Source: Syntrophobacterales bacterium (GTDB taxonomy: Bacteria; Desulfobacterota; Syntrophia; Syntrophales; UBA5619). Taken from it: a DNA stretch of 44,192 nt. The position numbers and the translations under genes are program-made. Shown piece after piece: positions 12,891 to 34,740 of this stretch. The first letter of the stretch is position 1; every line of letters begins with the position of its first letter. The notes under the pieces were generated by a model. That model did no database searches. It was not told the origin of the DNA and saw only the letters and a list, made by a program, of their open reading frames with translations. The stretch is taken from NCBI GenBank assembly GCA_019429105.1, contig JAHYJE010000029.1:1-44192 (forward strand). The letters are read 5' to 3'.

Positions 12891-13124
12891 TTTAAAAAGT
12901 AAAAGGCAGCCATCAGATCTGCCAAACCAGTTATTTATAATTCATCGCAGGCTCTTCAAGCTCTCTTTCCGGCGACAGCCGGGAAACATGGCGATTGAAG
13001 TCCGTGGACATTACACTTCGTTTTGCGAGGCAAGGTCGGTATGGCCAATCGAAAATCACCTGTTGACGGGTGCGTCAGCTTTTAATCGGCGAAAATTGTA
13101 ATTGAAAAGTAAGGAGGCAAGACA

Positions 13125-14765
13125 ATGAGGGAATTGGAATTTGACGGGATTATCATCGGCGCGGGTCCCAATGGACTCACTGCGGCGGGATATCTTGCCA
13201 AGGCGGGCTTGAAGGTTGCCGTTCTGGAAAGAAGATATGAAATAGGCGGCGGATTGGCGACAGAAAACCTGCTCCTTCCGGGCATGCTGGTGGACAGCCA
13301 CGCCATCTACCACATGATGTGCGAGTACGCGCCGCCCCTGAGGGACTTCGAGCTGGAAACAAGGTATGACCTGAAGTGGATCTACCCGGAACTGCAGGTT
13401 GTCATGCCCTTTCAGGACGGCACTTACCTCGCCCTGTACAGCGATCCGGAAAAATCGGCCGAGTCCATCCGCAAGTTTTCGGAAAAGGATGCCGAATCGT
13501 TCCTCAACTTCGCCAGCATTTCCGATGAAGCGATGGATGTCTTTTTGGCGCCGGCAAGCTATGTAAACCCCTTGCCGAGCCTGGAGCAGGCGGCAAAGCT
13601 GGAAAAACATCCGGCGACTCAGTGGGATGATGAGCTTACCGGCTATACGCCCCGGCAGATTGTTGATTCCTGGTTCGAGAACGACAAGGTGCGAGCGTTT
13701 TTCCTCTATCTGGCCACCATGTGGGGGCTCGATTACGACCTCGAGGGGCTGGGTTATCTGGTGCCCCTGATGATCAACCGGGGATGGCATTTCCGTTTGA
13801 GTCACATGGGTTCCCATCATGTGGCCCATCTGATGGGAAAGTACATCTCCGAAAATGGCAGCCGGGTAATCAGCGGCTGCGTCATCAAAAAGATCGTCAT
13901 CGAAAACAACGAGGCCAAAGGGGTGGAACTTGCAGACGGCACAATCATCAAGGCCAAGAAATTCGTTTGCAGCACCCTCAACCCCCATCAGACCTTCTAT
14001 GACTACGTGGGGAAGGAACATCTCGAACCGGAATTGATTACCCGGCTGGACCAGTGGAAATATTCGGACATGAGCTTCTTCACCGTCCATCTGGCGCTCA
14101 CGGAAAGACCGCACTTCAAGATTTTCGATCAGCATCCGGAACTCGAAAGCGCCCTGATCTACGTCGTGGGCTACGAAAGCGAACAGGATCTGATTGACCA
14201 CTTTGAGGCTTCCAAGCGCGGAGAACTCCACGACGGCGGCTTCAACTGCTGCTTCCCGTCCATTCACGATCCGATCCGCATGCATCGCCATGCCGACAGT
14301 TTCGTCAAGCACATCGGCCTCATTTCGCTGGAGTGCGCTCCCTACAACCTGAAAGACGGCGGCCCGCTGGCCTGGAACAGGATGAGAAGAACCTATGCGG
14401 AACGCTGCAAGGCCATTCTGGGCAGGTACGCGCCGAACATGAACCAGGATACGATCGTCTGGGATTACATCGGCACACCTTTGGACACGGAAAACAAATT
14501 CCCCGACATGAAGCAGGGCTGTTTCAAACAGGGCGCCTACCTCCCCCTGCAGATGGGCTATTTCCGACCGAACGAATTCTGCAGCCAGCATGACACGCCG
14601 ATCAAGAATCTTTACATTGGCGGGGCGTCCACCCATTCGGGCGGAATGATTACCTACGGGCCGGGCTTCAACGCCGCCGAGAAGATCGCCGAGGACCTGG
14701 GTATCAAAAAATGGTGGCCCGAACCGCGCGGCGTCAAAGAGGCCAGAGACCTCGGACTGTTTTGA
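13125..14765 (+). CDS. phytoene-desaturase/retinol-saturase-like FAD oxidoreductase, paralogue 1
   Basis: The 546-residue flavoprotein begins with a Rossmann FAD motif, IIIGAGPNGLTAAGYLAKAG (10-29), and an Arg/Gly motif, LERRYEIGGGLATE. It ends with the family signature NLYIGGASTHSGGMITYGPG before the last helix. Relatives (CrtI, retinol saturase, many uncharacterised proteins) add or remove hydrogen at carbon-carbon double bonds in hydrophobic substrates. No carotenoid gene is present, so carotenoid synthesis is unlikely. It is the first gene of a long plus-strand block, with an AAGGAGG ribosome site. A homologous gene lies two genes downstream. Substrate unknown; oxidation or reduction of a cyclic compound is a reasonable guess. 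Confidence 0.8.
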   Translation: MRELEFDGIIIGAGPNGLTAAGYLAKAGLKVAVLERRYEIGGGLATENLLLPGMLVDSHAIYHMMCEYAPPLRDFELETRYDLKWIYPELQVVMPFQDGTYLALYSDPEKSAESIRKFSEKDAESFLNFASISDEAMDVFLAPASYVNPLPSLEQAAKLEKHPATQWDDELTGYTPRQIVDSWFENDKVRAFFLYLATMWGLDYDLEGLGYLVPLMINRGWHFRLSHMGSHHVAHLMGKYISENGSRVISGCVIKKIVIENNEAKGVELADGTIIKAKKFVCSTLNPHQTFYDYVGKEHLEPELITRLDQWKYSDMSFFTVHLALTERPHFKIFDQHPELESALIYVVGYESEQDLIDHFEASKRGELHDGGFNCCFPSIHDPIRMHRHADSFVKHIGLISLECAPYNLKDGGPLAWNRMRRTYAERCKAILGRYAPNMNQDTIVWDYIGTPLDTENKFPDMKQGCFKQGAYLPLQMGYFRPNEFCSQHDTPIKNLYIGGASTHSGGMITYGPGFNAAEKIAEDLGIKKWWPEPRGVKEARDLGLF

Positions 14766-14777
14766 AAGGAGAGAGCC

Positions 14778-15185
14778 ATGTTTATAAGATCAACCGGTTT
14801 GGGGAGGACATTGCTGTCGGGAAGAATAGCGAGGATCGTGACCACCGATGTAGTTCCTTCAACCCTGGAGGCCGCCCCCAAAGGCGCCAGTGAACCAACG
14901 CGACTCCTCGTGGAGGTGGAAATAACGAATCCCGTTCATTGGACGGTGCGGGCCTTCATAGACCCGCCGGATTTGCGGGAAATGCTCGGAATAATCTTTA
15001 CAAGTCCGTCACTTATGTTGAAATGCCTGAAGTTTCTTTTCAGCAGCGGGCCAAAGCATGCTGAACCGGCGCAGGCGAAAACGCCGAGTGCGGATGTTTT
15101 ACCACCGCTTGCGGCCGCTCCGGCGAAGGCAGTTTCCGGTCCGGCGCCGATTGGCCCAAGGCCCATTCCCGCAAGGAAAAAGTGA
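14778..15185 (+). CDS. small protein of unknown family between the two flavoproteins
   Basis: The 135-residue product is not recognised. Residues 1-80 look folded (RSTGLGRTLLSGRIARIVTT, then LLVEVEITNPVHWTVRAFID). A short hydrophobic stretch follows (GIIFTSPSLMLKCLKFLFSS) and then a proline/alanine-rich, probably disordered tail ending in basic residues. AAAGGAGAG lies just before the ATG, and the gap to the flavoprotein gene is only 12 bp, which supports real translation. Its place between two paralogous flavoproteins suggests an accessory or linker subunit for them (inference). Confidence 0.65.
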   Translation: MFIRSTGLGRTLLSGRIARIVTTDVVPSTLEAAPKGASEPTRLLVEVEITNPVHWTVRAFIDPPDLREMLGIIFTSPSLMLKCLKFLFSSGPKHAEPAQAKTPSADVLPPLAAAPAKAVSGPAPIGPRPIPARKK

Positions 15186-15223
15186 TCAATCATAAATAAT
15201 TATAAAGGCACAGGGAGGTTATT

Positions 15224-16906
15224 ATGCCAGATAAAAAGTACGATGCAGTTATCGTCGGCGGCGGGCATCACGCAACCATAATCGCGTGTTACCTGCAGCG
15301 GGCCGGCCTCAAGACGGCGATGTTTGAAAGATGGCACGAGATGGGCGGCGGCGCCTGCGGCGAAGAGCTGCCGCTTCCGGGTTTTATCCAGAATGTCTGC
15401 GCCCACTTTACCAGATTTTATACAAATCCCGCCTATTCCGATTTCAATTTGCGCGATTACGGCCTGGTTTATCTGTTTCCGGAAAACAACGAGGCTTGGA
15501 TCTATCCCGACGGCAACTATATTATGGGGAAAACGATCTTTCCGGTCGTCGATCCGCTCACGGGCCGCTCTGAATTCTCGCAGGCGGCCGCCGACTACAC
15601 GATCAAGGAAATCGCCAAGATCAACCAGGACGACGCCAACACGGTCGAGCAGATCATCCAAAACTTCAAAAACAAATGGAAAAAGGCGTTCGGTCTTTAC
15701 CGTTATACGGGCCCCGGTGAATGGGGGAACGGACCAGATCCGCTGGAAGCGCTGTTTGACGATCCGAAAAGCGGCCTGGATCGCGACCTTTGCATGGGAA
15801 CAGTGGGCGAGATCGCCACGCGGATGTTCAAGAGTCCCGAGATGCAGACCTTTTACATGCGCGCCATGCAGACCTCAAACGGCCTGATGCCCTGCGATCG
15901 ACCGGGCCCTTACTGGCATGTGCATGCCCTGGGCCTCATCCTCTCGATGGATGCCGCGGCAATCGTCACCGGGGGAACGCACAGCATCACCCATGCACTC
16001 CTGCGGGCTTTCCAGCAGTACGGGGGCGAATTCTTCGTTCTCAACGAAGTAAAAAAAGTCCTTGTAGATAACAACAAGGCCTACGGAATCGAATTGAAAA
16101 ATGGCGACCGGGTGCTGGCCGACATCGTCGTGAGTGATTTGAGCGTTGAGCTCACTCTGGAGGCCGTGGGCAAGGAGTGGACACCCGATGAGCTTTGGGA
16201 AAAGGCGCAGAAGCTGAAGGTAAAACCTCCGACCTTAGAGGATACGGGCTATGAAAGAACGCAGTTGATGTGGGGAAACATTGCCCTGATGGAGGCCCCC
16301 GTTTACCCCATGAACCCGGAATTGGGCATGGTCCCCCGTTTGTACTTTGGCAAGGCCGATCCCGACTATTTTCTGAGTGGCCGCTATCAGAAGGAGCGCT
16401 GGGAGAAGGGAATCGCCGACCAGTTGTATCTCCTTGTAGCGCCGGACGTGCAGTGGGACAAGACCCGCGCCCCGGCTGGGAGATTCGCCGCCCTTGTGGA
16501 GGAATTCACCTGTCCCTGGAGAAATTTTTCGGAACGGGAATGGCTGAGAATGAAGCGGGAAATTGAAACCCGCATGGTGAAAGAGTGGGCGAAATATGCC
16601 CCCAATGTAACGATGGACAACTTCATTTCCGCCTGGATTGCCACACCGGACGACGTGGTCAACCGGAATCTCTGCATGCCCCAGGGGGGTTGGGGGGCGC
16701 TCGATGCCAACTACGAGTGTTTGGGAAGAATGAGACCCTTTCCGGAGATATCGGGATACCGCATGCCAGTCAAAAATTACTACCTCTGTTCGTCGGCGGC
16801 GCATTCCGCCCACGGGATCGGGCGCGGCAGCAGCTACAACTGCTATAAGGTAATTGCCCAGGATTTGGGGCTTAAATACCGGCCCTGGGAAGAGCGCGGT
16901 TGGTAG
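15224..16906 (+). CDS. phytoene-desaturase/retinol-saturase-like FAD oxidoreductase, paralogue 2
   Basis: The 560-residue protein is homologous along its length to the flavoprotein at 13125. It shares the FAD site (AVIVGGGHHATIIACYLQRA near residue 7), the RWHEMGGGACGEELPLPG segment and the C-terminal HSAHGIGRGSSYN helix cap. The nucleotide-binding turn is GGGHHAT rather than GAGPNGL, so its FAD contacts or redox tuning may differ. CAGGGAGG precedes the ATG. Two diverged copies in one operon suggest a heterodimer or two successive redox steps on the same substrate. Confidence 0.8.
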   Translation: MPDKKYDAVIVGGGHHATIIACYLQRAGLKTAMFERWHEMGGGACGEELPLPGFIQNVCAHFTRFYTNPAYSDFNLRDYGLVYLFPENNEAWIYPDGNYIMGKTIFPVVDPLTGRSEFSQAAADYTIKEIAKINQDDANTVEQIIQNFKNKWKKAFGLYRYTGPGEWGNGPDPLEALFDDPKSGLDRDLCMGTVGEIATRMFKSPEMQTFYMRAMQTSNGLMPCDRPGPYWHVHALGLILSMDAAAIVTGGTHSITHALLRAFQQYGGEFFVLNEVKKVLVDNNKAYGIELKNGDRVLADIVVSDLSVELTLEAVGKEWTPDELWEKAQKLKVKPPTLEDTGYERTQLMWGNIALMEAPVYPMNPELGMVPRLYFGKADPDYFLSGRYQKERWEKGIADQLYLLVAPDVQWDKTRAPAGRFAALVEEFTCPWRNFSEREWLRMKREIETRMVKEWAKYAPNVTMDNFISAWIATPDDVVNRNLCMPQGGWGALDANYECLGRMRPFPEISGYRMPVKNYYLCSSAAHSAHGIGRGSSYNCYKVIAQDLGLKYRPWEERGW

Positions 16907-16936
16907 CAGTCGGAGGACAAGAAAGAGGAAGAGAGC

Positions 16937-17815
16937 ATGAAACCGGACATCAAATGCGGGTTATGCCTTTTGGAGTGGGTTTATGAGCGGGCAATAGCCT
17001 CAAACAACAATGAAGACATCCCGCCGCTGTTCAAAAATATTGTCCATCTCCTTGCCCGCGAGATGACAGAATCAGCCAATGTGGGAGCTCTGTGCAATCA
17101 GGCGGCGGATTTGATTTATGAATTTGTTCCCCCGGAATCAGATTTCTGGAGTGCAATCAAGCGGGAAACAAATGGTTATGTCGCGGGTCTGCTGCCGCAG
17201 GCCGCAGCCTATGTAAATCAGGCGAGAACGCCGCGCGGAAAATTTCAAAGGGCCTGCTCGCTCGCCGCCACGGGAAATGTTTCACCAATGGGCGCACCGG
17301 CAGGAGGAAAAGCATTTTCTTTTCCCGAGGCGCTGGCGCTCATGACGGGCAAAGGCCCCCTCCCCGTTTTTATCGGCGATGGCTTCAAGGCCGCGACCCA
17401 GTCTAATTACGTATTCTATGTAACAGATAACGCAGGAGAAATAGGGTTTGACGCCCTTCTTGTGGCTCAGCTCAAAAATATGGGAAAAGATGTGACTGTG
17501 GTCGTCAAGGAACCGGCCTATTTCGAGGATGCGACCCCTGCAGATGCAGAATTTTTCGACCTGAACCGCACAGCCGACCGAATAGTGACAGTGAAAAAGG
17601 TTTTTGTTCCCGGAAAGGGCAAGTCGGCCGCCAACCTGGCCTTTCGCAAGAGCGATCTCGTAATTTCCAAGGGAACCGGAAATTACGAAGCCCTGCGCGG
17701 TGAAACACAAGGAAAATCGGCGTTGTTTCTTTTGAAAATCAAGTGCGCGGCGATCGCCAGGGATATGGAAATCAGTGAGGGTAAATTTGTCGTCAAACTT
17801 GACGCAAGGAGCTGA
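16937..17815 (+). CDS. DUF89 (ARMT1-like) metal-dependent phosphatase
   Basis: The 292-residue protein carries the marks of the DUF89 family: an N-terminal CGLC pair (7-10), the metal-site motif VTDNAGEIGFD near 162-172, and VISKGTGNYEAL near 245 with a following LKIKCAAIA. Family members are Mn- or Ni-dependent phosphatases that remove damaged or surplus sugar and cofactor phosphates. Within an operon that also encodes a PEP-synthase-like phosphotransferase, it could hydrolyse a phosphorylated pathway intermediate or side product (inference). The start has an AGAGGAAGAGAG ribosome site. The next gene begins four bases after the stop. Confidence 0.82.
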   Translation: MKPDIKCGLCLLEWVYERAIASNNNEDIPPLFKNIVHLLAREMTESANVGALCNQAADLIYEFVPPESDFWSAIKRETNGYVAGLLPQAAAYVNQARTPRGKFQRACSLAATGNVSPMGAPAGGKAFSFPEALALMTGKGPLPVFIGDGFKAATQSNYVFYVTDNAGEIGFDALLVAQLKNMGKDVTVVVKEPAYFEDATPADAEFFDLNRTADRIVTVKKVFVPGKGKSAANLAFRKSDLVISKGTGNYEALRGETQGKSALFLLKIKCAAIARDMEISEGKFVVKLDARS

Positions 17816-17819
17816 CAGC

Positions 17820-18581
17820 ATGCAGCAGAAAAGACTTGAGGACAAGGTTGTTATAATCACAGGAGCGGGCAAGGGGCTGGGCAAGGCCTTCGCGTTGAGG
17901 TTTGCCGACGAAGGCGCCAAACTTGTCCTCGTAACCAGAAAAGACCTTGATGGGCTCAAAAAAGCGGCTGAAGAAGCAACCGCCAGGGGCGCGGAATGCA
18001 TCTTTTTTCTGGCTGACGTTACCAAACTTGAAGAGATGCAGAAAGTAGCTGATGAAACTGTCAAGAGATTCGGCAGGATCGATGTTTTGGTCAATAATGC
18101 CGCCTACTATTTTGGCGTAGAGCGAAAGCCCTTCGATCAAATATCGCCGGAAGAGTGGGACATGATGATGGACATCAACGTCAAGGGGCCCTGGATTTGT
18201 GCCCGGACGGTGTTTCCCAGCATGAAGACGCAGGGCAAAGGCAAAATCATCAACCTTGGCTCCGAGGTATTCTTCACGGGGTCAAATGGTTTTGCCCATT
18301 ACGTCGCCTCCAAGGGCGGGGTCGTGGGACTGACCAGGGCTTTGGCCGCCGAGCTGGGACCGAACAACATTACGGTAAACGCCGTAGCGCCGGGCTTTAC
18401 TGACACAGAGGCGAGCCGCACGATCGCGGATGTGGCGAAATATGACATATCGAAAACGCCCCTCCGGCGACTCGGAAAGGCTGAAGACATTGTCGGGACG
18501 GTACTTTTTCTGGCTTCCGATGACGCCGATTTCATAACAGGGGAAATTATACTTGTGGATGGCGGAAGGGCCATGCACTAA
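17820..18581 (+). CDS. short-chain dehydrogenase/reductase (FabG-like)
   Basis: The 253-residue classical SDR has cofactor motif TGAGKGLGKA near residue 14, NNAA near 90, the catalytic Asn in MDINVKGPWI, Ser in NLGSEVFFTGS and the YVASK pair. An Arg after beta-2 (VTRKD) suggests NADP(H). The start is the ATG at 17820, with AAGGAGC ten bases before it; a longer frame from 17775 only overlaps the preceding gene. In this operon it probably interconverts a ketone or aldehyde and an alcohol made or used by the neighbouring flavoproteins or AOR. A substrate assignment is not possible from the sequence. Confidence 0.85.
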   Translation: MQQKRLEDKVVIITGAGKGLGKAFALRFADEGAKLVLVTRKDLDGLKKAAEEATARGAECIFFLADVTKLEEMQKVADETVKRFGRIDVLVNNAAYYFGVERKPFDQISPEEWDMMMDINVKGPWICARTVFPSMKTQGKGKIINLGSEVFFTGSNGFAHYVASKGGVVGLTRALAAELGPNNITVNAVAPGFTDTEASRTIADVAKYDISKTPLRRLGKAEDIVGTVLFLASDDADFITGEIILVDGGRAMH

Positions 18582-18687: not shown

Positions 18688-20370
18688 ATGAAGATGTATG
18701 ATTGCGTACCAGGATTGGAGTTTGATGAGAAAACCGACCTGGACCAGTCGCCGGTCTGGTTTCTGGATGGCACCCACTCGGTGCCGCCCTGGACTCCGAT
18801 GTTCGGGTGGTTATGGATCAATTTCTGCCGCCACGGGATGCAGTATGGCGCAGAAACTCTCCAGCTTCCCACCGTACACGGCTGGGACTGGCGTTTTAAA
18901 AATGGCGGCGCTTACCTTACTCTGTTATTGGTGGGCTCGGAGGAAGAAAAGAAGGCCCGGGAGGTGAAGTTCCAGCAGGCAATCCGGCCTTTTGTGGAGG
19001 ACTACGACAAGCTCTGGACCGGTTTGCTGGAAGAGCTGTTCGTTCGGTACCGAAAAATCAAGGCGGTGGACGGTGAAACAGCAACCCAGATAGAGCTCCT
19101 GGAAAATTTTGAATATGCAATCGCCACGTGCCGCAGGATGTGGGAAATTCACATGTATATGATGTACGGCACCTACATGCCCTTCGTGCTCTTTGAAAAG
19201 CTCTGCAAGCATCTGCTGAACATCGACGACACCCATCCTGATTTTCAGAAACTGATGAGCGGCTTCGACAATGAGAGTTTCCGCGTCGATCTGGCTCTGT
19301 GCGATTACGCCCAGAAATTGCGGGAAATTGGCATGGAAGCAACCCTGCAGGCGACGGCGCCCAAAGATTGGGAAGCTAAACTCCGGGAAACCGATCAAGG
19401 CCGTGAATTTGTTAAAGAATTTGTGGCATTCATTGACGCGAAGGCCGGCTGGCGAATGGAACGAATGGCAGAGATCTGTCTGCCCACGTGGGCGGAAGAT
19501 CTGCCCCAGGCCTTCGACAAGGTTGCCGTTTACCTGAAGGCGGGGGAGAAGTTCGACCTCGGCAAGAAGCGGTTGGAGCTCGAAGCGGAGCGCAAAAAAA
19601 CAGAGGCGGAGATGCTGAGCAGGGTTTCCGCCGAACAGCGGGGGTGGTTTTCCACGCTGATGAAAATTGCTCAGAACTGCAGCCGCTTCAGCGAAGAGCA
19701 CAACCATTATCTCGATCAGGAAACCCACTCCCTGCTGCGCAAGACCTGCATTGATCTGGGCAGGCGTTTTGCAGCCGCAGGAACCATTGCCGACCGCGAC
19801 GACATCTTCTTCCTCATACCCGATGAAGTTCGCAAGGCAGGGCTAAACCCGGGGCAGTTCAACCTCAAGCCTCTCGTTGAGCGGCGCCGGGCCGAATGGG
19901 ACCAGTGGAACAAGGACGGCAATCCTCCGGTAATTTTAAAGAGTGATTTCAGCATGGCGCAGGCCATGGAGGTAATGGTCAAATCGATGGATCCGATCGC
20001 CCTCAAAGTGGTCGTGGGCACCATGCCGGAGGCCCGGCCGGAACTCAAGGCCGACCTCATCGGAACATGCGGTTCCGGCGGCGTGGCCGAAGGCATTGCG
20101 AGGGTTGTCTTCAAGGAAGAGGATCTGGCAAGCATCCAGCCCGGAGACATTCTTGTTGCGGTCAGCACATCGCCGGCCTGGACCCCCATCTTCGGAATGA
20201 TCAAGGGGGTAGTGGTGGACCGGGGCGGCAGCCTCTCCCACGCCGCCATCGTGGGCAGGGAATACGGCATCCCCGTGGTCATGAACGTCTTCGAGGGAAC
20301 AACGAAGATCAAATCAGGACAGCGAATAAAAGTAGATGCCAATTTAGGGACGGTAGTAATACTTCGTTAA
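18688..20370 (+). CDS. PEP-synthase-like phosphotransferase subunit: substrate domain plus phosphohistidine domain
   Basis: The 560-residue protein ends in the PEP-utilising mobile domain: GTCGSGGVAEGIARVV near 455, then GGSLSHAAIVGREYGIPVV with the phosphorylatable His518. The first 430 residues are a helical substrate-binding part with ADRDDIFFLIPDE near 370, as seen in rifampin phosphotransferase and PEP-synthase relatives. There is no ATP-grasp domain; that part is encoded separately at 21180. This split matches phenylphosphate synthase of Thauera (protein 1 with the His, protein 2 with the ATP site), including approximate sizes. The reaction would be ATP + acceptor-OH to phosphorylated acceptor, AMP and phosphate. 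The acceptor is unknown, and no UbiD-type carboxylase for phenylphosphate is nearby. Confidence 0.8.
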   Translation: MKMYDCVPGLEFDEKTDLDQSPVWFLDGTHSVPPWTPMFGWLWINFCRHGMQYGAETLQLPTVHGWDWRFKNGGAYLTLLLVGSEEEKKAREVKFQQAIRPFVEDYDKLWTGLLEELFVRYRKIKAVDGETATQIELLENFEYAIATCRRMWEIHMYMMYGTYMPFVLFEKLCKHLLNIDDTHPDFQKLMSGFDNESFRVDLALCDYAQKLREIGMEATLQATAPKDWEAKLRETDQGREFVKEFVAFIDAKAGWRMERMAEICLPTWAEDLPQAFDKVAVYLKAGEKFDLGKKRLELEAERKKTEAEMLSRVSAEQRGWFSTLMKIAQNCSRFSEEHNHYLDQETHSLLRKTCIDLGRRFAAAGTIADRDDIFFLIPDEVRKAGLNPGQFNLKPLVERRRAEWDQWNKDGNPPVILKSDFSMAQAMEVMVKSMDPIALKVVVGTMPEARPELKADLIGTCGSGGVAEGIARVVFKEEDLASIQPGDILVAVSTSPAWTPIFGMIKGVVVDRGGSLSHAAIVGREYGIPVVMNVFEGTTKIKSGQRIKVDANLGTVVILR

Positions 20371-20450: not shown

Positions 20451-21107
20451 ATGTTTCTGTTTGTTCAGCAATGGGAAATCATCAAGGGCAAGGAGGATGA
20501 TTACTCGACTTTTATTTTGCGGAAACATCTGCCTGCCATGGCGAAGGTGGGTCTCAACATCATTGGCGGATTCCATGTCATTCTGGGATCCGGCCCGCGG
20601 ATCACCTCCGCGGCAATGGCCGATGATTTTTTGAGCATGCAGATGGCCTGGCAGAGAGAGGAATTTATTGAAGTAACCAAAGAGCTGAACAACTATGTTG
20701 CCAATTACAGCAATGCCGTTCTCAAGGATACGGGCCGCGTGGATATGGCCAATTACGGCCTGGCTCTCGGAACGTGGCGGTTTAACCAGTACTTCAAGCT
20801 CGTTCGAGGCACGGAAGCCGCATACACGGACTTCCTGAAGAATGAATATCTGCCGATGCTGGCAAAAGTAGGCATCCGGGTCCAGGCAGAGTGGCAGGTC
20901 ATCATCGGCAACACCCTTCGCCTGATCCTGGAAGGGCTGACCACCAATCTGGTGGAGGTTGCGCAAGCAATGATGACGGATGAGTACCGCCGGCTAAGAC
21001 GTCGTCTGCTGGCCAATTTTGCAAAAGACTACAGCAGCAGAATTCTGGCGCCGACAGGCAGAGTGGAGATGGCCTATCTACTGAGCGGAATTACAAAATC
21101 ACTGTAA
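20451..21107 (+). CDS. internally duplicated unknown protein (possible dimeric alpha-beta barrel)
   Basis: The 218-residue product is made of two related halves. KHLPAMAKVGLNIIGGFHVI in the first half matches EYLPMLAKVGIRVQAEWQVI in the second, and VLKDTGRVDMANYGL matches ILAPTGRVEMAYLL. Each half has the strand-helix-strand pattern of NIPSNAP- or Dabb-like ferredoxin-fold domains, though I cannot confirm the family. It lies between the two halves of the split phosphotransferase, where a third subunit could be expected. Phenylphosphate synthase has a third protein, but with CBS domains, which are absent here. GGGGAGGTG precedes the ATG. Confidence 0.65.
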   Translation: MFLFVQQWEIIKGKEDDYSTFILRKHLPAMAKVGLNIIGGFHVILGSGPRITSAAMADDFLSMQMAWQREEFIEVTKELNNYVANYSNAVLKDTGRVDMANYGLALGTWRFNQYFKLVRGTEAAYTDFLKNEYLPMLAKVGIRVQAEWQVIIGNTLRLILEGLTTNLVEVAQAMMTDEYRRLRRRLLANFAKDYSSRILAPTGRVEMAYLLSGITKSL

Positions 21108-21179: not shown

Positions 21180-22205
21180 ATGGAACAGTGGCTTTACCGT
21201 TTTGAAGAACTGGGGATGGAATTCAACGACCTGGTGGGGAAAAAATGCGCCAACCTGGGCGAAATGAGCAAACTCGGCATGAGAGTGCCCTACGGTTTTG
21301 CCATCTCGGTGCAGGGATTCGAGGCCTTCATGAATCTTACGGGCCTTGCCGGCCAGATCAGGGAGCGCATCGAACCGCGCCGGGAAATCCTGAAAAAGGT
21401 GGAGGTCTGTCAGGAAGAAAGCCGCGTGGTTCAGCGCCTCATTGAATCCACTGCCATGCCGGAGTCGATGAGGAAGGAAATAGTGGATTATTACCGGGAG
21501 CTCTGCAAAAAGGTGGGCCGAGCCGATCTGCCGGTGGCGGTCCGCTCCAGCGGCATCGTCAGCATGCCCGGACAGATGGATACGTATCTCAATATCAGCG
21601 GCGATGACAATGTCATTGAATATATAAAGAAGGTCTGGAGCAGCGCCTACACGGTGCGCGCCATGATGTACCGGATCGAAAGAAATCTCCCTGTGGAGTG
21701 GGCGCCGATCGGAGTGGCGGTAATGATGCTGGTCGATGCGAAAGCGGCCGGCGTTGTCCTGACCGTATTGCCCACTACGGGCGACACCACCCAGGTGATA
21801 ATTGAGGGCAACTGGGGCCTCGGAGAGAGCGTCGTCAGCGGCGAGATCACCCCCGATTCCTTCACCCTGGAAAAAGAGAATATGCAGATCACCGGCCGTC
21901 ACGTTTGCCGCAAGCAGGGAATGGTGATTAGGGAAGCCTCCGGCACCGTTTACTCCCAGGTGCCGGAAGAATTGCAGGAAAAACCCTGCCTCAATGATGA
22001 CGAACTGCTCGCGCTCGCCGAAATCGCCCTCTCTGTCGAAAAGCATTTTGGGATGCCCCAGGATATGGAATGGGTAATTGATAAAAATCTCCCCTTTCCG
22101 GAAAACATCTTCTGGGTTCAGGCCCGGCCGGCGAAGTTTACCAAAGCCGATAAATCCAAAGATGTTGACTATATAATCAATCTGATGGTAGGAATGTTCG
22201 ACTGA
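21180..22205 (+). CDS. PEP-synthase-like ATP-grasp subunit
   Basis: The 341-residue protein is the stand-alone PEP/pyruvate-kinase-type ATP-binding domain. It shows the glycine-rich start GKKCANLGEMSKLG (20-33), LPVAVRSSGIVSMPGQMDTY near 118, VDAKAAGVVLT near 190, GNWGLGESVVSGEITPDSF near 213 and the metal-binding end DMEWVID with FWVQARP. In PEP synthase this domain splits ATP and hands the beta-phosphate to the mobile histidine domain. Here that histidine is on the product of 18688, so the two must work together, as in phenylphosphate synthase proteins 1 and 2. It is followed after 15 bp by the AOR gene. Confidence 0.87.
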   Translation: MEQWLYRFEELGMEFNDLVGKKCANLGEMSKLGMRVPYGFAISVQGFEAFMNLTGLAGQIRERIEPRREILKKVEVCQEESRVVQRLIESTAMPESMRKEIVDYYRELCKKVGRADLPVAVRSSGIVSMPGQMDTYLNISGDDNVIEYIKKVWSSAYTVRAMMYRIERNLPVEWAPIGVAVMMLVDAKAAGVVLTVLPTTGDTTQVIIEGNWGLGESVVSGEITPDSFTLEKENMQITGRHVCRKQGMVIREASGTVYSQVPEELQEKPCLNDDELLALAEIALSVEKHFGMPQDMEWVIDKNLPFPENIFWVQARPAKFTKADKSKDVDYIINLMVGMFD

Positions 22206-22220
22206 GATAAGGAATAAAAA

Positions 22221-24083
22221 ATGACCGTTTATCAAAACAGGTTTCTGAAGCTTGATCTATCAAAAAGGGAAGCCGTCGAAGCGCCGCTTGATCCGGAGGT
22301 GGTTCGCGACTTTCTGGGCGGTCGCGGTTTCGGGATAGAGTACCTCTATAGGCATCTTTCCCCCCATACGGACCCCCTCAGTCCTGACAATATCCTCCTG
22401 TTTCTGCCGGGAATTCTTGGCGGAACCAGCGCTCCCGGCTTCTCCCGCTGGATTGCGGCTGCCAGGAGCCCGCTTACCGGCGCCTATATCCGCTCGGTGT
22501 GCGGCGGGAAATTCGGCGCTGCCATCAAGACTTGCGGGTACGAATTTATTGCGATTCACGGCCGGGCCGACCGTCCAACCTATGTCCATTTGAGTAAAGA
22601 AGGGGCTGAATTCCTCGATGCCGACGGTCTGTGGGGTCTCGATACCGCTGCCACGCAGGAGCGAATCTGGGACAAATCCGGCAAAAGCAATACCCGCATT
22701 GCCTGCATTGGACCGGCAGGCGAAAACCTCGTAAAATTTGCCGCGATCATCCATGAGAAAAGGGCCGCGGCCCGCGGCGGCGTCGGCGCAGTGATGGGGT
22801 CAAAGAATTTAAAGGCCGTCGCCATCAATACCTCCGGCGGCGCTGCTCCGGCGCTCCAGGACCGGGAAACCTTCCTGAAGCTCGTGCAGGAACATAACGA
22901 AATTCTTAAAACCCATGACCGACGCAAGAAAATGACCGCCTACGGCACCACCTTTATGACGTCAAAAATGCACGCGCTTGGCATTTTTCCGGTCAGGAAC
23001 TTTCAGGAGGGCGGTCTGCCCGGAGTGGAAAAGATCGGCGCGGAGGCATTCCAAAAGCTGAAAACTGGCGACTATGGCTGCTATGCCTGCACAACTCGGT
23101 GCGGCAACATCTTCAAGGCTGCGGAAGGTCCCTACAAAGGAGCACAAAGCGAAGGGCCGGAGTACGAAACTGTCTTCTCCTTCGGTGGAGAAATCGCCAA
23201 CACCGACCCCGGGGCTATCATCGCGGCCGATGCCCTCTGTGATCGCCTGGGAATAGACACTATCAGCATGGGGGTGGTTGCCGGCTTTGTCATGGAACTC
23301 TACGAAAAAGGAATATTAAGCTCTGAGGAATTGGATGGCCTGAAACCGGAGTGGGGCGACCATAGGGCGCTCTTTCAGCTCATCGAAAAAGTGGCCAGTC
23401 GCGAAGGCATAGGCAATATCCTGGCTGAAGGAACAAGGAAAGCCGGTCAACTGATAGGAAAAGGCGCAGAATACTATGCCATGACCGCCAAAGGCCTGGA
23501 ATTGCCCGGATACGAACCGCGGGCGGCCAAGGCGCACGGCCTCGGATACGCCGTTTCGAACATTGGCGGCAGCCATATGTACGGCTATGCCCGCCAGGAA
23601 ATCTCCGGGTTCATGCAGCCCCGGGAAATAGACCGTCTTGCCGATGACGGCAAGGGAGATATCGCGGGCTGGAACCAGATAAAAAAGGCAGTGGAAGAAA
23701 CGGGCATCCTCTGCAATTTTGCCGATACCAATGTTACGCAACAGCTTATTTGCGATCTTTATGTCAGCGCTACCGGCCGGAGCGACCTGGCAGAACCCAA
23801 AAATATGGACAAATTTGGCGAGCGGATTGTCTGCCTGGAAAGATGCTTTAATGTTCGGGAGGGATTCAGCAGAAAGGACGATACGCTTCCGGATAGGATG
23901 TTCAAGGAACCCTTGAAGAATGCCGGCCCCTCAACAGGCGCGGTCATCAGAAAGATGGACAATCTCCTCGACGAGTATTATGATTTCATGGGATATGATA
24001 AAAATGGCATCCCGACCGCGGAAAAGCTGAAGGAATTAGGCCTTGCGGACTTGGCATCGGAGATGGAAAGTTTTCGCAAGTAA
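22221..24083 (+). CDS. tungsten/molybdenum aldehyde:ferredoxin oxidoreductase
   Basis: The 620-residue AOR-family enzyme interconverts aldehydes and carboxylic acids (or a related low-potential couple) with ferredoxin, using a bis-tungstopterin and a [4Fe-4S] cluster. Seen here are the early FLGGRGFG motif (31-38), pterin-site segments such as GKFGAAIKTCGYE and GGVGAVMGSKNLKAVA, and cluster cysteines 287, 290 and 294 (CYACTTRCGN), with a fourth in GILCNF near 494. ERCFNVREGF near 550 is also typical. It closes the plus-strand block, 15 bp after the ATP-grasp gene. It probably oxidises an aldehyde from the pathway or reduces an acid with low-potential electrons. AAGGA precedes the ATG. Confidence 0.93.
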   Translation: MTVYQNRFLKLDLSKREAVEAPLDPEVVRDFLGGRGFGIEYLYRHLSPHTDPLSPDNILLFLPGILGGTSAPGFSRWIAAARSPLTGAYIRSVCGGKFGAAIKTCGYEFIAIHGRADRPTYVHLSKEGAEFLDADGLWGLDTAATQERIWDKSGKSNTRIACIGPAGENLVKFAAIIHEKRAAARGGVGAVMGSKNLKAVAINTSGGAAPALQDRETFLKLVQEHNEILKTHDRRKKMTAYGTTFMTSKMHALGIFPVRNFQEGGLPGVEKIGAEAFQKLKTGDYGCYACTTRCGNIFKAAEGPYKGAQSEGPEYETVFSFGGEIANTDPGAIIAADALCDRLGIDTISMGVVAGFVMELYEKGILSSEELDGLKPEWGDHRALFQLIEKVASREGIGNILAEGTRKAGQLIGKGAEYYAMTAKGLELPGYEPRAAKAHGLGYAVSNIGGSHMYGYARQEISGFMQPREIDRLADDGKGDIAGWNQIKKAVEETGILCNFADTNVTQQLICDLYVSATGRSDLAEPKNMDKFGERIVCLERCFNVREGFSRKDDTLPDRMFKEPLKNAGPSTGAVIRKMDNLLDEYYDFMGYDKNGIPTAEKLKELGLADLASEMESFRK

Positions 24084-24427: not shown

Positions 24428-24994
24428 ATGCACGCTGATTACACCCATATTTTTAAACTTGCCCAGCCTTATTTGAATGTCCGGAGAAACGACATTCACA
24501 CCGAGATTGTTTATCGTTCGGCCTGTCGCTTGCTGGAGAGCGAACCTGGCGATCCCTCGATAATCATACCAGCGGTAATCTGCCATGATATCGGCTGGAG
24601 TCAGGTACCCGAAGAGCTGCACTTGAAGGCATTCGGGCCCAACTCTGATCCGGCGTTGACCCGTCTGCACGAGATTGCAGGGGCAAAACTCGCCCGGGAC
24701 ATTTTACTGGCAATCGCGTATGAACCCAAGAAGTCTGTAGAAATTATTGCCATCATTGAAGGTCATGACACCCGTTCTACAGCCCTTTCCGCCAGCGACA
24801 AGATCGTCAAGGATGCCGATAAGCTGTTTCGTTTTGATAAAAGCGGGATGGAAATTGACGCCAACCGTTTTCAAATAAAAATAACCAATCATGCCAATTG
24901 GCTGGAGCAGCAGATTGAAAAGTGGTTTTTCACCGAGACCGGGAAAAAGCTCGCCCAGGAAGCGCTTGCCCGGTTTAGACAGCAGAGGCATTAA
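24428..24994 (+). CDS. HD-domain phosphohydrolase
   Basis: The 188-residue protein has the HD metal site: His24 (NDIHTEIVYRSACRLL), the HD doublet in VICHDIGWSQ near 53 and the downstream Asp in IVKDADKLFRFDK near 126. EGHDTRSTA lies between. HD proteins cleave phosphoesters, often nucleotides or second messengers; the substrate here is unknown. The start has an AGGAGTAAGG ribosome site. Its upstream region is occupied by MITE copy 3, so transcription must start in the 39-bp gap, inside the element, or further upstream. It converges on the nitroreductase gene with an 8-bp gap. Confidence 0.82.
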   Translation: MHADYTHIFKLAQPYLNVRRNDIHTEIVYRSACRLLESEPGDPSIIIPAVICHDIGWSQVPEELHLKAFGPNSDPALTRLHEIAGAKLARDILLAIAYEPKKSVEIIAIIEGHDTRSTALSASDKIVKDADKLFRFDKSGMEIDANRFQIKITNHANWLEQQIEKWFFTETGKKLAQEALARFRQQRH

Positions 24995-27536: not shown

Positions 27537-28160
27537 CTATAATGCGGCGGGATCGAAGGCGCAAGCGACAAACCGGCCGTCATGGCTTAAGCTTATATCG
27601 GCAAAAAGACGGCTGCCTCTAAAAGCTATGAACGGGGCCCACGGCCTCCGTTCTTCTTTGGCAACGGACAAATCACCGACCGAACAGCCAATACGTCGGG
27701 AGATTTCTTCCAGCAGGACTTTTCTTGCAAAGCGGGGCGGATCGGCATTGTTGGCATCAACCTGCTCGACCCGGAAAATGATTCTGGCCAAATCATCCAC
27801 TGTTCCGGCGACAATTGCATGAACCATCTCCGCATCAATAAAGATACTTACCGGCAGTTCACCGAGGGGCGTAACAACCTTGCCTGTCAGGGGGGAATCA
27901 GCTAACTCGCCGGCGTCAGCTATAATAACAGGATATTTTTTCGGGATGGAACAGACCGTCGGAGCGCCGCGGCTTACCGCCTTGTAGGCGGCCTCTTTTG
28001 CGGCCCAGAGCGCCCAGAGAATGCTGTCCGGCCGGTCGGAGTTGGCGATTAACGATAATTCACGGGGATTGAAAACACGGCGGCAGAAACGCTTGTCGCT
28101 GCTTTTGCCGATATTGTCCGGCTCGGCCAGATCGACGATGTCATTGCCGACGGGAGGCAA
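27537..28160 (-). CDS. 4'-phosphopantetheinyl transferase
   Basis: This enzyme transfers phosphopantetheine from CoA to the serine of a carrier protein. The metal-binding motif VGNDIVDLAEPD lies at the N-terminus and WALWAAKEAAYKAVSRG near residue 55, with a Sfp/AcpS-type layout over 207 residues. ISLSHDGRFVACAF closes the protein. I chose the TTG at 28160, which has GGAGGAG seven bases upstream; the open frame's first possible TTG at 28184 lacks this. It overlaps the end of the acyltransferase gene by 20 bp. It is the last gene of the lipid operon and presumably activates the carrier protein encoded at 28897. Confidence 0.85.
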   Translation of the reverse strand: MPPVGNDIVDLAEPDNIGKSSDKRFCRRVFNPRELSLIANSDRPDSILWALWAAKEAAYKAVSRGAPTVCSIPKKYPVIIADAGELADSPLTGKVVTPLGELPVSIFIDAEMVHAIVAGTVDDLARIIFRVEQVDANNADPPRFARKVLLEEISRRIGCSVGDLSVAKEERRPWAPFIAFRGSRLFADISLSHDGRFVACAFDPAAL

Positions 28161-28887
28161 AGTACTGCTCCTCCAGCAAAGCAAGGCGTTCGACTATCTG
28201 CCGCGCGTAGTCCCTCTGCACGCGCAGCCCTCCCCCCTCACGGCGCTCGGGGACGAAGGCCTCCAGCAACATCGTGAAACGCTCTTTCTGAACCGGCATC
28301 GATCCGTAATTTTCCTGATGGTCGCCGCGCAGATAGACTATCAATACACGAGTTTCTTTCTGCTCATCAACAAGCCGACCCACGCCATAGGAAAAATTCT
28401 CCCGGTCAACCCGGCCGTGTCGTGACCTTGTCCCCTCCGGGAAGATAACCAGCCGCTGCTTCCAATTGAACACCTGAAGGCATTTATCGAGCAGTCGCTG
28501 CACCTCTTCCCGGCTCCCACCCCGGTCAACCGGGATGCATTTGAGCAGGTAACACAAAACCACAAGAAAGGTATTCTTGTAAAAGTTCTTTATTTCCGGC
28601 AAGTTCCAGGGAATTTGCCGGAAATGAAGAATATGATCGGAAAGCGATAAAAGGCCATAGGTTAACACCAGCGAATCAATCATCGTCAGGTGATTGGGGC
28701 AGACAAGCCATGGCCCCTCGTGTTCGCGAGTCAAGCTTTTGACTTGCTGGCGAACCTGCTTTAAATCGCGGATACTGTACCCTCTCAACTTGACGAAGAG
28801 AAAGCAAAGCGGCGCCGTCACGACGACGGCGATCCCGCCCAGAAATTGCTGTAAGGACAGTTTACGACGATCCGTTTTCGTTATCAT
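28141..28887 (-). CDS. PlsC-type acyltransferase
   Basis: The 248-residue acyltransferase has a membrane helix near 15-36 and the catalytic motif NHLTMIDS near 65. The second block is near 110-125 (KCIPVDRGG) and the acyl-acceptor block FPEGTRSRHGR near 150. Family members esterify acyl groups from acyl-ACP or acyl-CoA onto glycerol-phosphate backbones or other alcohols at the inner membrane. In this operon it probably attaches the specialised acyl chain to its lipid acceptor (inference). It starts nine bases after the carrier-protein gene. Confidence 0.85.
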   Translation of the reverse strand: MITKTDRRKLSLQQFLGGIAVVVTAPLCFLFVKLRGYSIRDLKQVRQQVKSLTREHEGPWLVCPNHLTMIDSLVLTYGLLSLSDHILHFRQIPWNLPEIKNFYKNTFLVVLCYLLKCIPVDRGGSREEVQRLLDKCLQVFNWKQRLVIFPEGTRSRHGRVDRENFSYGVGRLVDEQKETRVLIVYLRGDHQENYGSMPVQKERFTMLLEAFVPERREGGGLRVQRDYARQIVERLALLEEQYFASRRQ

Positions 28888-28896
28888 GACCTTAAA

Positions 28897-29145
28897 TTAG
28901 GCAGCCTTCTGATAAATAAGCTCAACCGCGTCGCCGATCGTCGTAATCCGGTCTGCGTCGTCATCCTCGATCGTGGTGCCGAAAACATCCTCGCACTTGA
29001 TGATGATATCGACCAATCGCGCCGAATTTACCTTCAAATCCTTGATGATATGAGTTTCCGGCGTTGCCTTTTCCAAGAGCGACTGATCCTTTACATATCC
29101 CTTCAAGATATCGATAACCTTCTGTGTAATCTGTTCTTTTCCCAT
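28897..29145 (-). CDS. acyl carrier protein, divergent attachment motif
   Basis: The 82-residue protein has the ACP fold: acidic helices, and Ser41 at the start of helix II in LKVNSARLVDIIIKCEDVFG. The canonical motif is DSL; here it is NSA, so the Asp and Leu next to the pantetheine serine are replaced. It should be modified by the transferase encoded two genes downstream. An excellent AAGGAGG site precedes the ATG. It lies between the KAS II-like gene and the acyltransferase gene, consistent with a carrier dedicated to this pathway rather than to housekeeping synthesis. Confidence 0.87.
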   Translation of the reverse strand: MGKEQITQKVIDILKGYVKDQSLLEKATPETHIIKDLKVNSARLVDIIIKCEDVFGTTIEDDDADRITTIGDAVELIYQKAA

Positions 29146-29183
29146 TTTTAAATCCTCCTTGAAATAATTGATTTTAAATTAGA

Positions 29184-30461
29184 CTATTCTTCCCATTTTT
29201 TGAAAATCAGACAACTGTTTACATCGCCAAAGCCGAAACCGGCCTTGATGGCAATCTTCAAATCCGGCGCATCAACGGCCGCATGCGGGATGCTGCCTTC
29301 CCAGGGGGCAATCAGGGGATGAACATCCTCGCAATTGATGGAAGGATGGATAAAGCCGTCCCGCAACTGCAGTACTACCCCGACGCATTCGATCGCGCCA
29401 GTTGCCCCCAGACAGTGCCCGATCATCGACTTTGTCGAGTTGATCATCGGAAAATTTTCCGGACCTCGGCCCAGTGCCGCCGACCAGTTCTTCACCTCTC
29501 CCGGATCGGCAGAGGTTGCCGTCAGATGGCCGTTGATCAGGTCGATCTGCTCGGAAGCAATCCCCGCGTCGGCAATCGCCCCTTTTATGCAGCGGACAAC
29601 CCCCTCCGGATTAGGGGCCGTTATGGTTCCACCGTTCCGATGGCCGCCGCAGTTCACCATTCCGCCCAGAACCTCGGCATAAATGCGCGCCCCGCGCGCC
29701 AAAGCCGCCTCCAATTCCTCCAAGAGCAAAAATGCCCCTCCCGCTCCCGGCACAAAACCGGCGGCGGTGGCGCTCATCGGGCGCGACGCCTCCTGCGGCC
29801 GATCATTAAACTTGCGGCAAATGACCTTCATCGCGTCGAATCCCGCCCAGATATACGGTGAAGCCCCCTCCGAACCTCCGGCCAGCATGCGCGTCGCCAA
29901 ACCGTTTCTGATCCGGGCAACCCCCTCGATAATCGCCTCATTGCCGGTGCTGCATGCCGAGGAGTTCGAGGTAACCTGATTTCCCAAAGCAAGCAGGCCG
30001 GCGATCCGGGCGCTCGTGGCGCTGTTCATAACCTGCTCGACAACCCGGCTTCCCATACGACGGCATTTGCCGTCGTTAACCAGCGGCACCAAAGTGCCGG
30101 CAATCGTGTCCATGCCGCCGATGCCTGATCCGGCAATGACTCCGGCATCCCAATTCACCCGGTCTTCATCAGCCGCAGGGACGCTGAAACCAGCGTCCTT
30201 CCAGGCATCGATCGCCGCGACTGCGGCAAACCCGATATTGTCGTTAATCGACATCAACTCTTCGCTGTCAAAATAACTGTCTCTGATCTTGTCAAAGCCT
30301 TCCGGCGCTCCGCCAACCTGACAGCCGAAGTTCAACTCCGCCATCCTGGGGACAAAACGGATGCCCGACCGGCCCTCCCTAAGGGCGTCGGCAAATGCGT
30401 CGAGACCGTAACCGTTTGGCGCCACCACCCCCATCCCCGTAACAACAACCCTGCGTCTCAT
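29184..30461 (-). CDS. KAS II/FabF-like ketosynthase
   Basis: The 425-residue condensing enzyme elongates acyl-ACP with malonyl-ACP. The triad is complete: Cys170 in TSNSSACSTGNEAI, His312 in INGHLTATSADPGE and His349 with Lys344 in NSTKSMIGHCLGATGAIE. The first His block is usually AHGTGT; GHLTAT is unusual. VVVTGMGVVAPNG opens the protein. I start at the ATG at 30461 because AGGAG lies eight bases upstream; a TTG seven codons earlier is also open. The 150 bp before the gene, to the FabZ-like stop, show no gene. Confidence 0.88.
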   Translation of the reverse strand: MRRRVVVTGMGVVAPNGYGLDAFADALREGRSGIRFVPRMAELNFGCQVGGAPEGFDKIRDSYFDSEELMSINDNIGFAAVAAIDAWKDAGFSVPAADEDRVNWDAGVIAGSGIGGMDTIAGTLVPLVNDGKCRRMGSRVVEQVMNSATSARIAGLLALGNQVTSNSSACSTGNEAIIEGVARIRNGLATRMLAGGSEGASPYIWAGFDAMKVICRKFNDRPQEASRPMSATAAGFVPGAGGAFLLLEELEAALARGARIYAEVLGGMVNCGGHRNGGTITAPNPEGVVRCIKGAIADAGIASEQIDLINGHLTATSADPGEVKNWSAALGRGPENFPMINSTKSMIGHCLGATGAIECVGVVLQLRDGFIHPSINCEDVHPLIAPWEGSIPHAAVDAPDLKIAIKAGFGFGDVNSCLIFKKWEE

Positions 30462-30611
30462 CAAACCCTCTCCTCGCAACATCTCTTGATCATGCAGAAC
30501 CGTGACAAAAAACGCGACTGCATGGATTTATCCTTTAGTGAAAAAGCTCCATATTTATTTGCCATCTGCATCTGCCACGGACGCAATGAAGCGCGTCCCT
30601 CCATTGACTCT

Positions 30612-31094
30612 TTATCTGGCAAACTTTTCCCGCGGCACCGCCCGGCCGGTAAGAAATCCGGAACAGATAGCCGCGCCGTCCTGCCTCGTCATGGCGCACT
30701 CAGACTTGAGCTGATTCCCGCGGAAGTATGACTTCATAGCGGAAACGATGACCGTCTCGCCGGGACGAACAACATAATTGAACTCCACCCCGTCGGCGAA
30801 GGTAAAAAGCGCTATCATATCATCCAGACCATTTTCCCCTTTTTTCTGCATCATCTGCAGATAAATGCCAAACGCGACAACCCCTGTCTGGGCCATTGTC
30901 TCAATCAGGATAACCCCGGGCGTTACCGGAAAGCCGGGGAAATGGCCCTGATAAAAATACTCATCCTCGCCAAACCGGTAAGCCCCGACAATATGCTCCT
31001 CGTCAAGTTCCCGGATTTCCGAGATAAACCGAAAAGGACGCTGTTGGGGCACCATTTCCAGAATGCGATTCCGTAATGCAGCATCAGCCTCCAT
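30612..31094 (-). CDS. FabZ-like 3-hydroxyacyl-ACP dehydratase
   Basis: The 160-residue hot-dog protein has the FabZ active site: His51 in YFYQGHFPGFPVTPG and Glu65 in VILIETMAQTG. It would remove water from 3-hydroxyacyl-ACP. The N-terminal PFRFISEIREL and the late VVRPGETVIVSAMKSYFRG strand fit the family. It starts 11 bp inside the end of the FabG-like gene, which implies coupled translation. A second dehydratase of FabA type is encoded in the same operon, so the two probably act at different chain lengths or products. Confidence 0.87.
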   Translation of the reverse strand: MEADAALRNRILEMVPQQRPFRFISEIRELDEEHIVGAYRFGEDEYFYQGHFPGFPVTPGVILIETMAQTGVVAFGIYLQMMQKKGENGLDDMIALFTFADGVEFNYVVRPGETVIVSAMKSYFRGNQLKSECAMTRQDGAAICSGFLTGRAVPREKFAR

Positions 31095-31815
31095 ACATTC
31101 CTCCGTTCACATGGATAACCGTGCCGGTTATGTAGGATGCGGAGGCTGCCAAAAACCCGACGACCTGGGCCACCTCTTCCGGTCGTCCCATCCGGCCGAG
31201 CGGAATGCCTGCCAGAATTCCCTCCCGGACTTCCTCGGGCAGGCGCTCGGTCATATCCGTATCGATGAACCCGGGGGCAACCGAATTGACCAGAATCTCT
31301 CGTCCTTTAAGTTCCCGGCAAAGCGATTTCGTCAGGGCGTCGAGCGCCGCCTTTTCCATCGCGTAGGGAATCTGACCGGCGTTCCCGGTGTGGCCGACGA
31401 CGCTTGAAATGTTAATGATCCGGCCGCTGTTGGCGCGCAGCATGTACTGGCGCAAAATGCGTTTTGTCAGGTACCAGGCGCCCCGCGCCGCTGCGCGCTG
31501 CTGGTCAAACTGCTCGATTTTCATCCGCAGCATGTCGATATCGATTGCGACCCCGGCATTGTTGACAAGAACGTCAACTCGGGCTGTTTCACTTTTCAGG
31601 CCTTCCAGCATCTGGTCAATCTGTGCGATATCGGCCAGATCGACCGGCAATAAAAATCCGTCGCCTATCCCCTCGAGCAGGCCTTCCGCCGCCTCCTTGC
31701 TGGAACGAAAGCAAATCCCCACCCGAAAGCCCCTTCCGGCGAGTTCGCGCACACAGGCGGCCCCGATTCCCTTTGCGCCCCCCGTTACAATTGCAACCTT
31801 TTTTTCGTCTGTCAT
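31084..31815 (-). CDS. FabG-like ketoacyl reductase with altered catalytic tetrad
   Basis: The 243-residue SDR has TGGAKGIGAA near residue 11, NNAG near 86, Ser138 in NISSVVGHTG and Tyr151/Lys155 in PYAMEKAAL. VNGGMYGG ends the protein. The helix that normally supplies the catalytic Asn (VNLxG) reads AAARGAW here, so that Asn appears to be Ala. The remaining triad is intact. It would reduce 3-ketoacyl-ACP with NADPH. The ATG at 31815 has a GAGGGGA site close upstream; a GTG at 31824 is an alternative. Confidence 0.83.
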   Translation of the reverse strand: MTDEKKVAIVTGGAKGIGAACVRELAGRGFRVGICFRSSKEAAEGLLEGIGDGFLLPVDLADIAQIDQMLEGLKSETARVDVLVNNAGVAIDIDMLRMKIEQFDQQRAAARGAWYLTKRILRQYMLRANSGRIINISSVVGHTGNAGQIPYAMEKAALDALTKSLCRELKGREILVNSVAPGFIDTDMTERLPEEVREGILAGIPLGRMGRPEEVAQVVGFLAASASYITGTVIHVNGGMYGG

Positions 31816-31873
31816 TCCCCTCACCTGCTATTGACTGTTCGCCGCCTGACGGCTGGCACGGATTGCATATTCG

Positions 31874-34658: not shown

Positions 34659-34740
34659 TTGAACCTCTTTCCTTAATCCGTAATTTAAGCGGCCCATGCA
34701 GAGACGCGCCTCGGCCCAGGGGCTTCGCGCGCTTTAGTGC

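Follow-up and report, generated by a model that had tools for sequence, protein, structure and literature searches.

Phenylphosphate synthase (PpsABC) of Thauera and Azoarcus is a split kinase, with an alpha subunit carrying the phosphohistidine and an ATP-binding beta subunit; a neighbouring gene encodes a third protein of about 24 kDa. Passages of PMC6114531 describe the 24-kDa gamma subunit of the T. aromatica enzyme as stimulating the reaction, its function being unknown, and an excerpt of PMC5946492 names PpsAB and PpcBY as the essential subunits common to the phenol operons of Syntrophorhabdus and others, which is consistent with a variable third component. Two related systems are described as pairs. 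PasAB of Desulfatiglans anilini was produced in E. coli and assayed without a third subunit (passages of PMC7500099), and HpeHI works with alpha and beta alone (passages of PMC12167813, in which HpeHI/CreHI and rifampin phosphotransferase (RPH) appear with two components only and no tandem barrel protein is described). The window (the whole stretch of DNA analysed, 44,192 nucleotides) encodes a kinase with the same alpha/beta domain logic as HpeHI/CreHI and RPH. Whereas the third protein of the Azoarcus cluster is a CBS-domain protein, the one encoded with the kinase in the window is a tandem NIPSNAP-like protein.

An internally duplicated gene between the two genes of a split kinase

The window kinase is a two-component small-molecule dikinase, in that a separate alpha protein carries the catalytic His and a beta protein the ATP-grasp domain. 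Between the two genes and on the same strand lies an ORF of 218 aa (20451–21107, +, ATG to TAA), hereafter dup, placed as a sequence-only reading of this DNA had claimed: alpha ends 80 bp upstream and beta begins 72 bp downstream. Immediately 5′ of the ORF stands GGAGGTGA. The genes of the region are as follows.

13125–14765, +, FAD1, flavoprotein whose top NCBIfam hit, CrtO, scores under the cutoff; opens the clade I gene set
14778–15185, +, u135, small conserved protein without a Pfam match, between FAD1 and FAD2
15224–16906, +, FAD2, second flavoprotein, again with CrtO as top NCBIfam hit, under the cutoff
16937–17815, +, ARMT1-like phosphatase-domain protein
17820–18581, +, short-chain dehydrogenase (SDR); start chosen, the listed ORF running from 17775
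18688–20370, +, alpha, substrate-binding and phosphohistidine (swivelling) subunit, 560 aa, His518 (PEP-utilizers mobile domain, E 1.5e-22)
20451–21107, +, dup, internally duplicated NIPSNAP/ABM-like protein, 218 aa (from the alignment of its halves, the tree, the C-half model and dN/dS)
20451–20762, +, dup N half, aa 1–104; F41/A54 at the Trp/Glu positions; G39, G40, G46, G48 and P49 kept
20772–21089, +, dup C half as modelled, aa 108–213; W148, G153, E161, R197, T202 and R204 kept
21180–22205, +, beta, ATP-grasp (PPDK_N) subunit, 341 aa (PPDK_N, E 6.5e-90)
22221–24083, +, aldehyde:ferredoxin oxidoreductase family protein
24428–24994, +, HD-domain protein, also found near several related loci

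The window alpha belongs to a short class (560 aa) set apart from the long PpsA-type class, to which it is 26–29% identical (28% to Azoarcus PpsA), the FastTree placement of the long alpha branches being unsure. Its residues 194–559 align with residues 520–866 of RPH, and His518 is invariant across nine aligned alphas. For wider comparison, 106 alpha genes of at least 480 aa were taken from dup loci, from 60 chosen dup-less alpha loci and from five plasmid regions; fractions of this set are not prevalences. A His-pattern search missed eight of the 106 (at least two of them cut short), and gave positions counted from trimmed starts, by which the window His518 is residue 523. As judged by its His position and identity figures only, Pas-alpha of D. 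anilini looks like a member of the short class: passages of PMC7500099 give His512 and 26.73% identity to Pps-alpha, much as for the window alpha against the long class. The substrate of the window kinase is probably an aromatic hydroxyl or amino compound.

The window genome encodes a second alpha-beta pair (L136 2985–6063; G000 contig C24) near UPF0261 and UbiD genes and without dup. In another genome (G412), one gene group (L049 6341–10773) holds two different alphas, one dup-linked and one divergent.

The halves of dup comprise about aa 1–104 and 105–218. They are identical at 29 of 98 positions (30%; 58/98 positives, E 6e-17), and their Smith-Waterman score of 146 lay above all of 5000 shuffles (mean 25, sd 4.5, maximum 55), which bears out the internal duplication read from the sequence alone. 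Both pairs of signatures on which that reading relied were recovered, namely LPAMAKVG (aa 27–34) with LPMLAKVG (aa 134–141), and TGRVDMANYG (aa 94–103) with TGRVEMAYLL (aa 202–211). DNA repeats within the gene are only 12–17 nt, so the duplication is old; it is also older than the spread of the family, since the best branch in a tree of the 118 halves of 59 members sorts 116 correctly as N or C. Comparison of the window gene with a 79%-identical copy in genome G046 gave dN 0.12 and dS 0.69 (ratio 0.18), showing that dup is under purifying selection.

Fold, family and conserved residues

The window dup had no match among Pfam models at E≤1 or among those of NCBIfam at E≤0.1, and a sequence search of the PDB returned as its best match a designed protein (E 0.068). 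Among its relatives, 31 of 58 matched Pfam NIPSNAP (PF07978) at E≤1, weakly (best 3e-7), and one, in L039, scored above the curated cutoff (26.5 vs 22.3), a score that the window protein does not reach. The proposed check by NIPSNAP models thus gave mostly weak matches for some relatives and none for the window protein itself.

The full-length protein, modelled by AlphaFold2 with three sequences, gave a pLDDT of 38. The C half was then used as the query with an alignment of the N and C halves of three proteins (six rows), giving a model with pLDDT 75.6 and pTM 0.67, the five models spanning 75.6 to 48.5. Its secondary structure runs beta-alpha-beta-beta-alpha-alpha-beta. A Foldseek search of the PDB matched it to LsrG (E 6.7e-5), to several NIPSNAP structures (1vqy at E 1e-4), and to ABM-type proteins and olivetolic acid cyclase (OAC), with E values from 6.7e-5 to about 1e-3. 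VIA-align gave Z scores of 10.5 for LsrG 2gff, 10.1 for NIPSNAP 1vqy and 11.1 for OAC, with 92–95 residues aligned. By this model, the C half is a predicted member of the dimeric alpha/beta-barrel superfamily (ferredoxin-like domain). Of the fused dimeric barrel that had been proposed, the domain type is thus supported by the C-half model and the weak NIPSNAP matches, and we infer that the two halves pack as one barrel. As modelled, the C half shares the fold of the NIPSNAP, ABM and LsrG dimeric barrels, and the L039 relative passes the Pfam NIPSNAP cutoff, whereas the window protein has no Pfam match at E≤1 and its halves are asymmetric. To our knowledge, few molecular roles have been assigned to NIPSNAP-type proteins, and a defined enzyme partner for one would therefore be informative.

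Whole-genome searches covered 395 genomes of one phylum, a subset of a larger group. With a profile built from six members, the family was found in 48 of them, 42 with full-length dup and six with only single-domain matches (about 100 aa), which were kept out of the 42. Together with a contig scan, which picks up close relatives only, the full-length genes gathered amount to 59 from 57 loci, counted after removal of L096 (on the contig of L006); a partial sequence of 197 aa (L075) is included in the 59 and left out of the 58-member alignment A3. No relatives were found on viral contigs, and plasmid records gave no match to the L083 dup at E≤0.01.

The full-length tree separates 52 kinase-clade genes from seven divergent paralogues. 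W109, W148, G153, E161, T202 and R204 are present in all 52 kinase-clade proteins. In their N halves the equivalent of W148 is F or Y in 52/52, and that of E161 (position 54) is V, A, I or L and never Glu. All seven divergent paralogues have Trp and Glu in both halves, including Glu at 54. These sequences suggest that an originally symmetric protein lost its symmetry along the kinase-clade line.

Genomic linkage and operon context

Alpha (E≤1e-60) was found in 39 of the 42 genomes with full-length dup, compared with 37 of the 353 without dup (Fisher OR 111, p 4e-29; the p value is nominal, the genomes being related, and at most three candidates per genome were scored). The three genomes with dup and no alpha are G156, G175 and G345. 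At the gene level, a same-strand alpha lies within 2.5 kb of 43 of the 59 dup genes, and 39 are accompanied by both alpha and beta. The sequence-only reading had made co-conservation with the phosphotransferase subunits a point on which it could fail, and these counts agree with it. As judged by its genomic setting, dup is a real and conserved partner of aryl-type dikinases.

The 16 dup genes without an adjacent alpha are the seven divergent paralogues, three genes cut by a contig end (L052, L078 and L087) and six real exceptions (L054, L061, L063, L065, L069 and L076); accordingly, 43 of the 52 kinase-clade genes have alpha within 2.5 kb, and none of the seven divergent ones does. Divergent is nevertheless not fully equal to unlinked, because L050 has two divergent paralogues that share a gene group with alpha, at distances of 2.9 and 3.6 kb; they stand in tandem (12956–14307, G435) near alpha, beta and dup genes.

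Gene order varies, from alpha-dup-beta in the window to alpha-dup-PaaK-beta (L005, L007), alpha-beta-dup (L058, L073) and dup-alpha-beta (L055, L083, L085). Distances between dup sequences correlate with those between their alphas (r 0.72 over 39 pairs, reached by none of 2000 permutations); over 36 loci the correlations are 0.72 for dup-alpha, 0.81 for alpha-beta and 0.66 for beta-dup. The dup-alpha correlation partly reflects shared genome history. Seen from the kinase, dup is absent within 2.5 kb of 67 of the 106 chosen alpha genes; at least three of those 67 (L102, L103, L161) run into a contig end where relatives carry dup. Alphas without dup include clade I members (L119, L140) and the UbiD-linked second pair of the window genome, and the alpha tree shows at least 11 changes in dup presence.

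Neighbours were counted within 10 kb of dup, many contigs being short and several non-clade-I loci shorter than 10 kb. In the 22 clade I loci we found FAD2 in 15, SDR in 17, FAD1 in 11, ARMT in 11, an ABM-family protein in 8 and UbiD in none, the window included. The ABM-family protein (106 aa; PF03992, E 1e-10 in L006, 3658–3978) lies near dup in L006, L039, L040, L042, L043, L068, L073 and L077. In the other 30 loci the counts were UbiD 10, UbiX 8, PAC_bac 8, UPF0261 12 and FAD2 3; this group includes L065 and L069, though the dup tree places both on the clade I side. Alpha and beta occur in 22/22 and 22/22 clade I loci, the alpha count being circular because these loci were chosen for having alpha, and in 21/30 and 17/30 of the others. 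Further families common to both groups are rarer (UPF0261 5/22 and 12/30, HcrA-type 6/22 and 6/30). Because in neither group does any other family accompany dup as often as alpha and beta do, and because the link to alpha holds in two kinds of operon and through altered gene order, dup probably serves the phosphorylation step.

Among the loci outside clade I, the L083 operon encodes, by Pfam, UbiD, a UbiX-type flavoprotein, PAC_bac and an AMP-dependent ligase, and L055 encodes molybdenum hydroxylase subunits; passages of PMC6114531 describe similar gene content for clusters converting phenol via 4-hydroxybenzoate to benzoyl-CoA. The clade I operons are of another kind. A conserved FAD1-u135-FAD2-ARMT-SDR set stands upstream of the kinase (window 13125–18581), and from sequence CrtO-like flavoproteins and a probable aryl kinase would here belong to one anaerobic pathway. 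Our literature search found no published account of this FAD operon, and the flavoprotein operon carrying dup points to a pathway not found in the literature searched. Membership in a benzene-activation cluster was considered and rejected, as the gene types differ from those of the ‘Magic’ cluster (PMC13101534) and the BzS1 flavoprotein cluster (PMC13416013), where the descriptions in the passages used give GlcDEF/PCMH-type flavoproteins, CoA transferases and beta-oxidation-type enzymes. Elsewhere in the window, on the strand opposite to dup, we noted by eye a putative fatty-acid or polyketide-like set (27537–34697, −; phosphopantetheinyl transferase, ketosynthases, dehydratases and acyl-CoA dehydrogenase) and an ORF of 2406 aa for a putative large, repetitive surface-type protein (36913–44133, −).

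A candidate accessory component and the alternatives

With moderate confidence, we regard dup as an accessory component (gamma-like) that is dedicated to a two-component small-molecule dikinase. In this kinase alpha holds the aryl-substrate and swivelling phosphohistidine domains and beta the ATP-grasp domain. The tandem fusion of two dimeric-alpha/beta-barrel domains would let a single chain form its own pseudo-dimeric barrel. Because only the C half keeps the Trp/Glu pair in kinase-clade members, one remaining ligand-type pocket is suggested, with the other half turned to docking. Dup would most likely dock on alpha and, through the C-half pocket, shape or shield the site of the aryl substrate as the phosphohistidine domain moves from beta to the substrate and back. 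A physical subunit, a pocket and a shielding role are what we infer. As HpeHI and PasAB, in the accounts cited above, work as two components, the expected effect of dup is stimulation or coupling, not an absolute need. Counting against a subunit are the activity of these two kinases as alpha/beta alone, the 67 of 106 alphas without dup and the six exceptions.

In such a role dup may fill the place of the CBS subunit in the Thauera/Azoarcus enzyme. In Azoarcus sp. KH32C, our one CBS locus, the order is alpha-beta-CBS-ppcBDAG, with the CBS gene after beta, and its alpha is 59% identical to the dup-linked, UbiD-type alpha of L083. The window differs from PpsABC in its short-class alpha and in having no UbiD within 10 kb of dup. 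None of the 39 dup-linked alpha genes has a CBS gene within 2.5 kb, and CBS matches lie further off in two dup loci (L068, L073) and in L108, without dup. In the window, no CBS match was found at 20451–21107 and no PpsC-like ORF of at least 80 aa at E≤1e-3; a single CBS-type match lies elsewhere in the genome (contig C1, 34% over 138 residues). The earlier suggestion that dup replaces the CBS protein is a purely positional one. The 106 alphas are a non-random sample in which some are truncated by contig ends; for 49 of them no searched accessory gene lies within 2.5 kb, so neither dup nor CBS seems needed everywhere.

More tentatively, and with more doubt than conviction, dup may be the first case of a third aryl-dikinase subunit of a new class, built as a fused and asymmetric NIPSNAP-like barrel; in sulfate reducers and syntrophs it would stand in for the CBS subunit and close the aromatic site for phosphoryl transfer. 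If so, alpha-beta kinases would be a core taking interchangeable small modules (CBS, NIPSNAP-like, receiver, AsnC-like). Literature searches on NIPSNAP with phosphotransferases in anaerobes, or with phenylphosphate, found no account. A protein of different structure encoded at a comparable place would give a second handle, and could serve as a marker for unrecognised aromatic-phosphorylating kinases in anaerobes.

Alternatively, dup may act outside the kinase, as a separate ligand-binding protein or a cofactor-free enzyme (like OAC or LsrG) for the aryl substrate or aryl-phosphate. We consider this possible and on the whole unlikely: many of the closest folds of the C half are enzymes or putative enzymes (LsrG, OAC, ABM monooxygenases), its Trp/Glu/Arg set is invariant, and some kinase-clade genes lie away from alpha (L054 beside PaaK, L063, L076), but dup accompanies alpha beside differing downstream genes, and the other common families are rarer than alpha and beta. 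We judge it improbable that dup travels in aromatic-catabolism operons as a neighbour of regulatory or stress type and takes no direct part in phosphorylation, since it co-occurs with alpha by genome and is repeatedly adjacent to it despite rearrangement, although alpha has other small neighbours within 2.5 kb, named mostly by eye (receiver-like 7, HAD-like 7 of which three are also beside dup, PNPOx-like 4, lone ABM-like 1, AsnC-like 1).

The receiver-like neighbour is a stand-alone protein of about 175 aa, by eye, in L121, L123, L124, L126, L142, L143 and L154. It occurs together with dup at none of the 106 alpha genes, and is possibly another interchangeable kinase partner. The Lrp/AsnC ligand-binding domain is also of the dimeric alpha/beta-barrel type; a 77-aa protein of this kind (L099 4569–4802) precedes the alpha-beta pair of Thermomicrobium roseum. 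In genome G248, a small protein that appears barrel-like by eye (L158 418–858) stands beside a divergent alpha.
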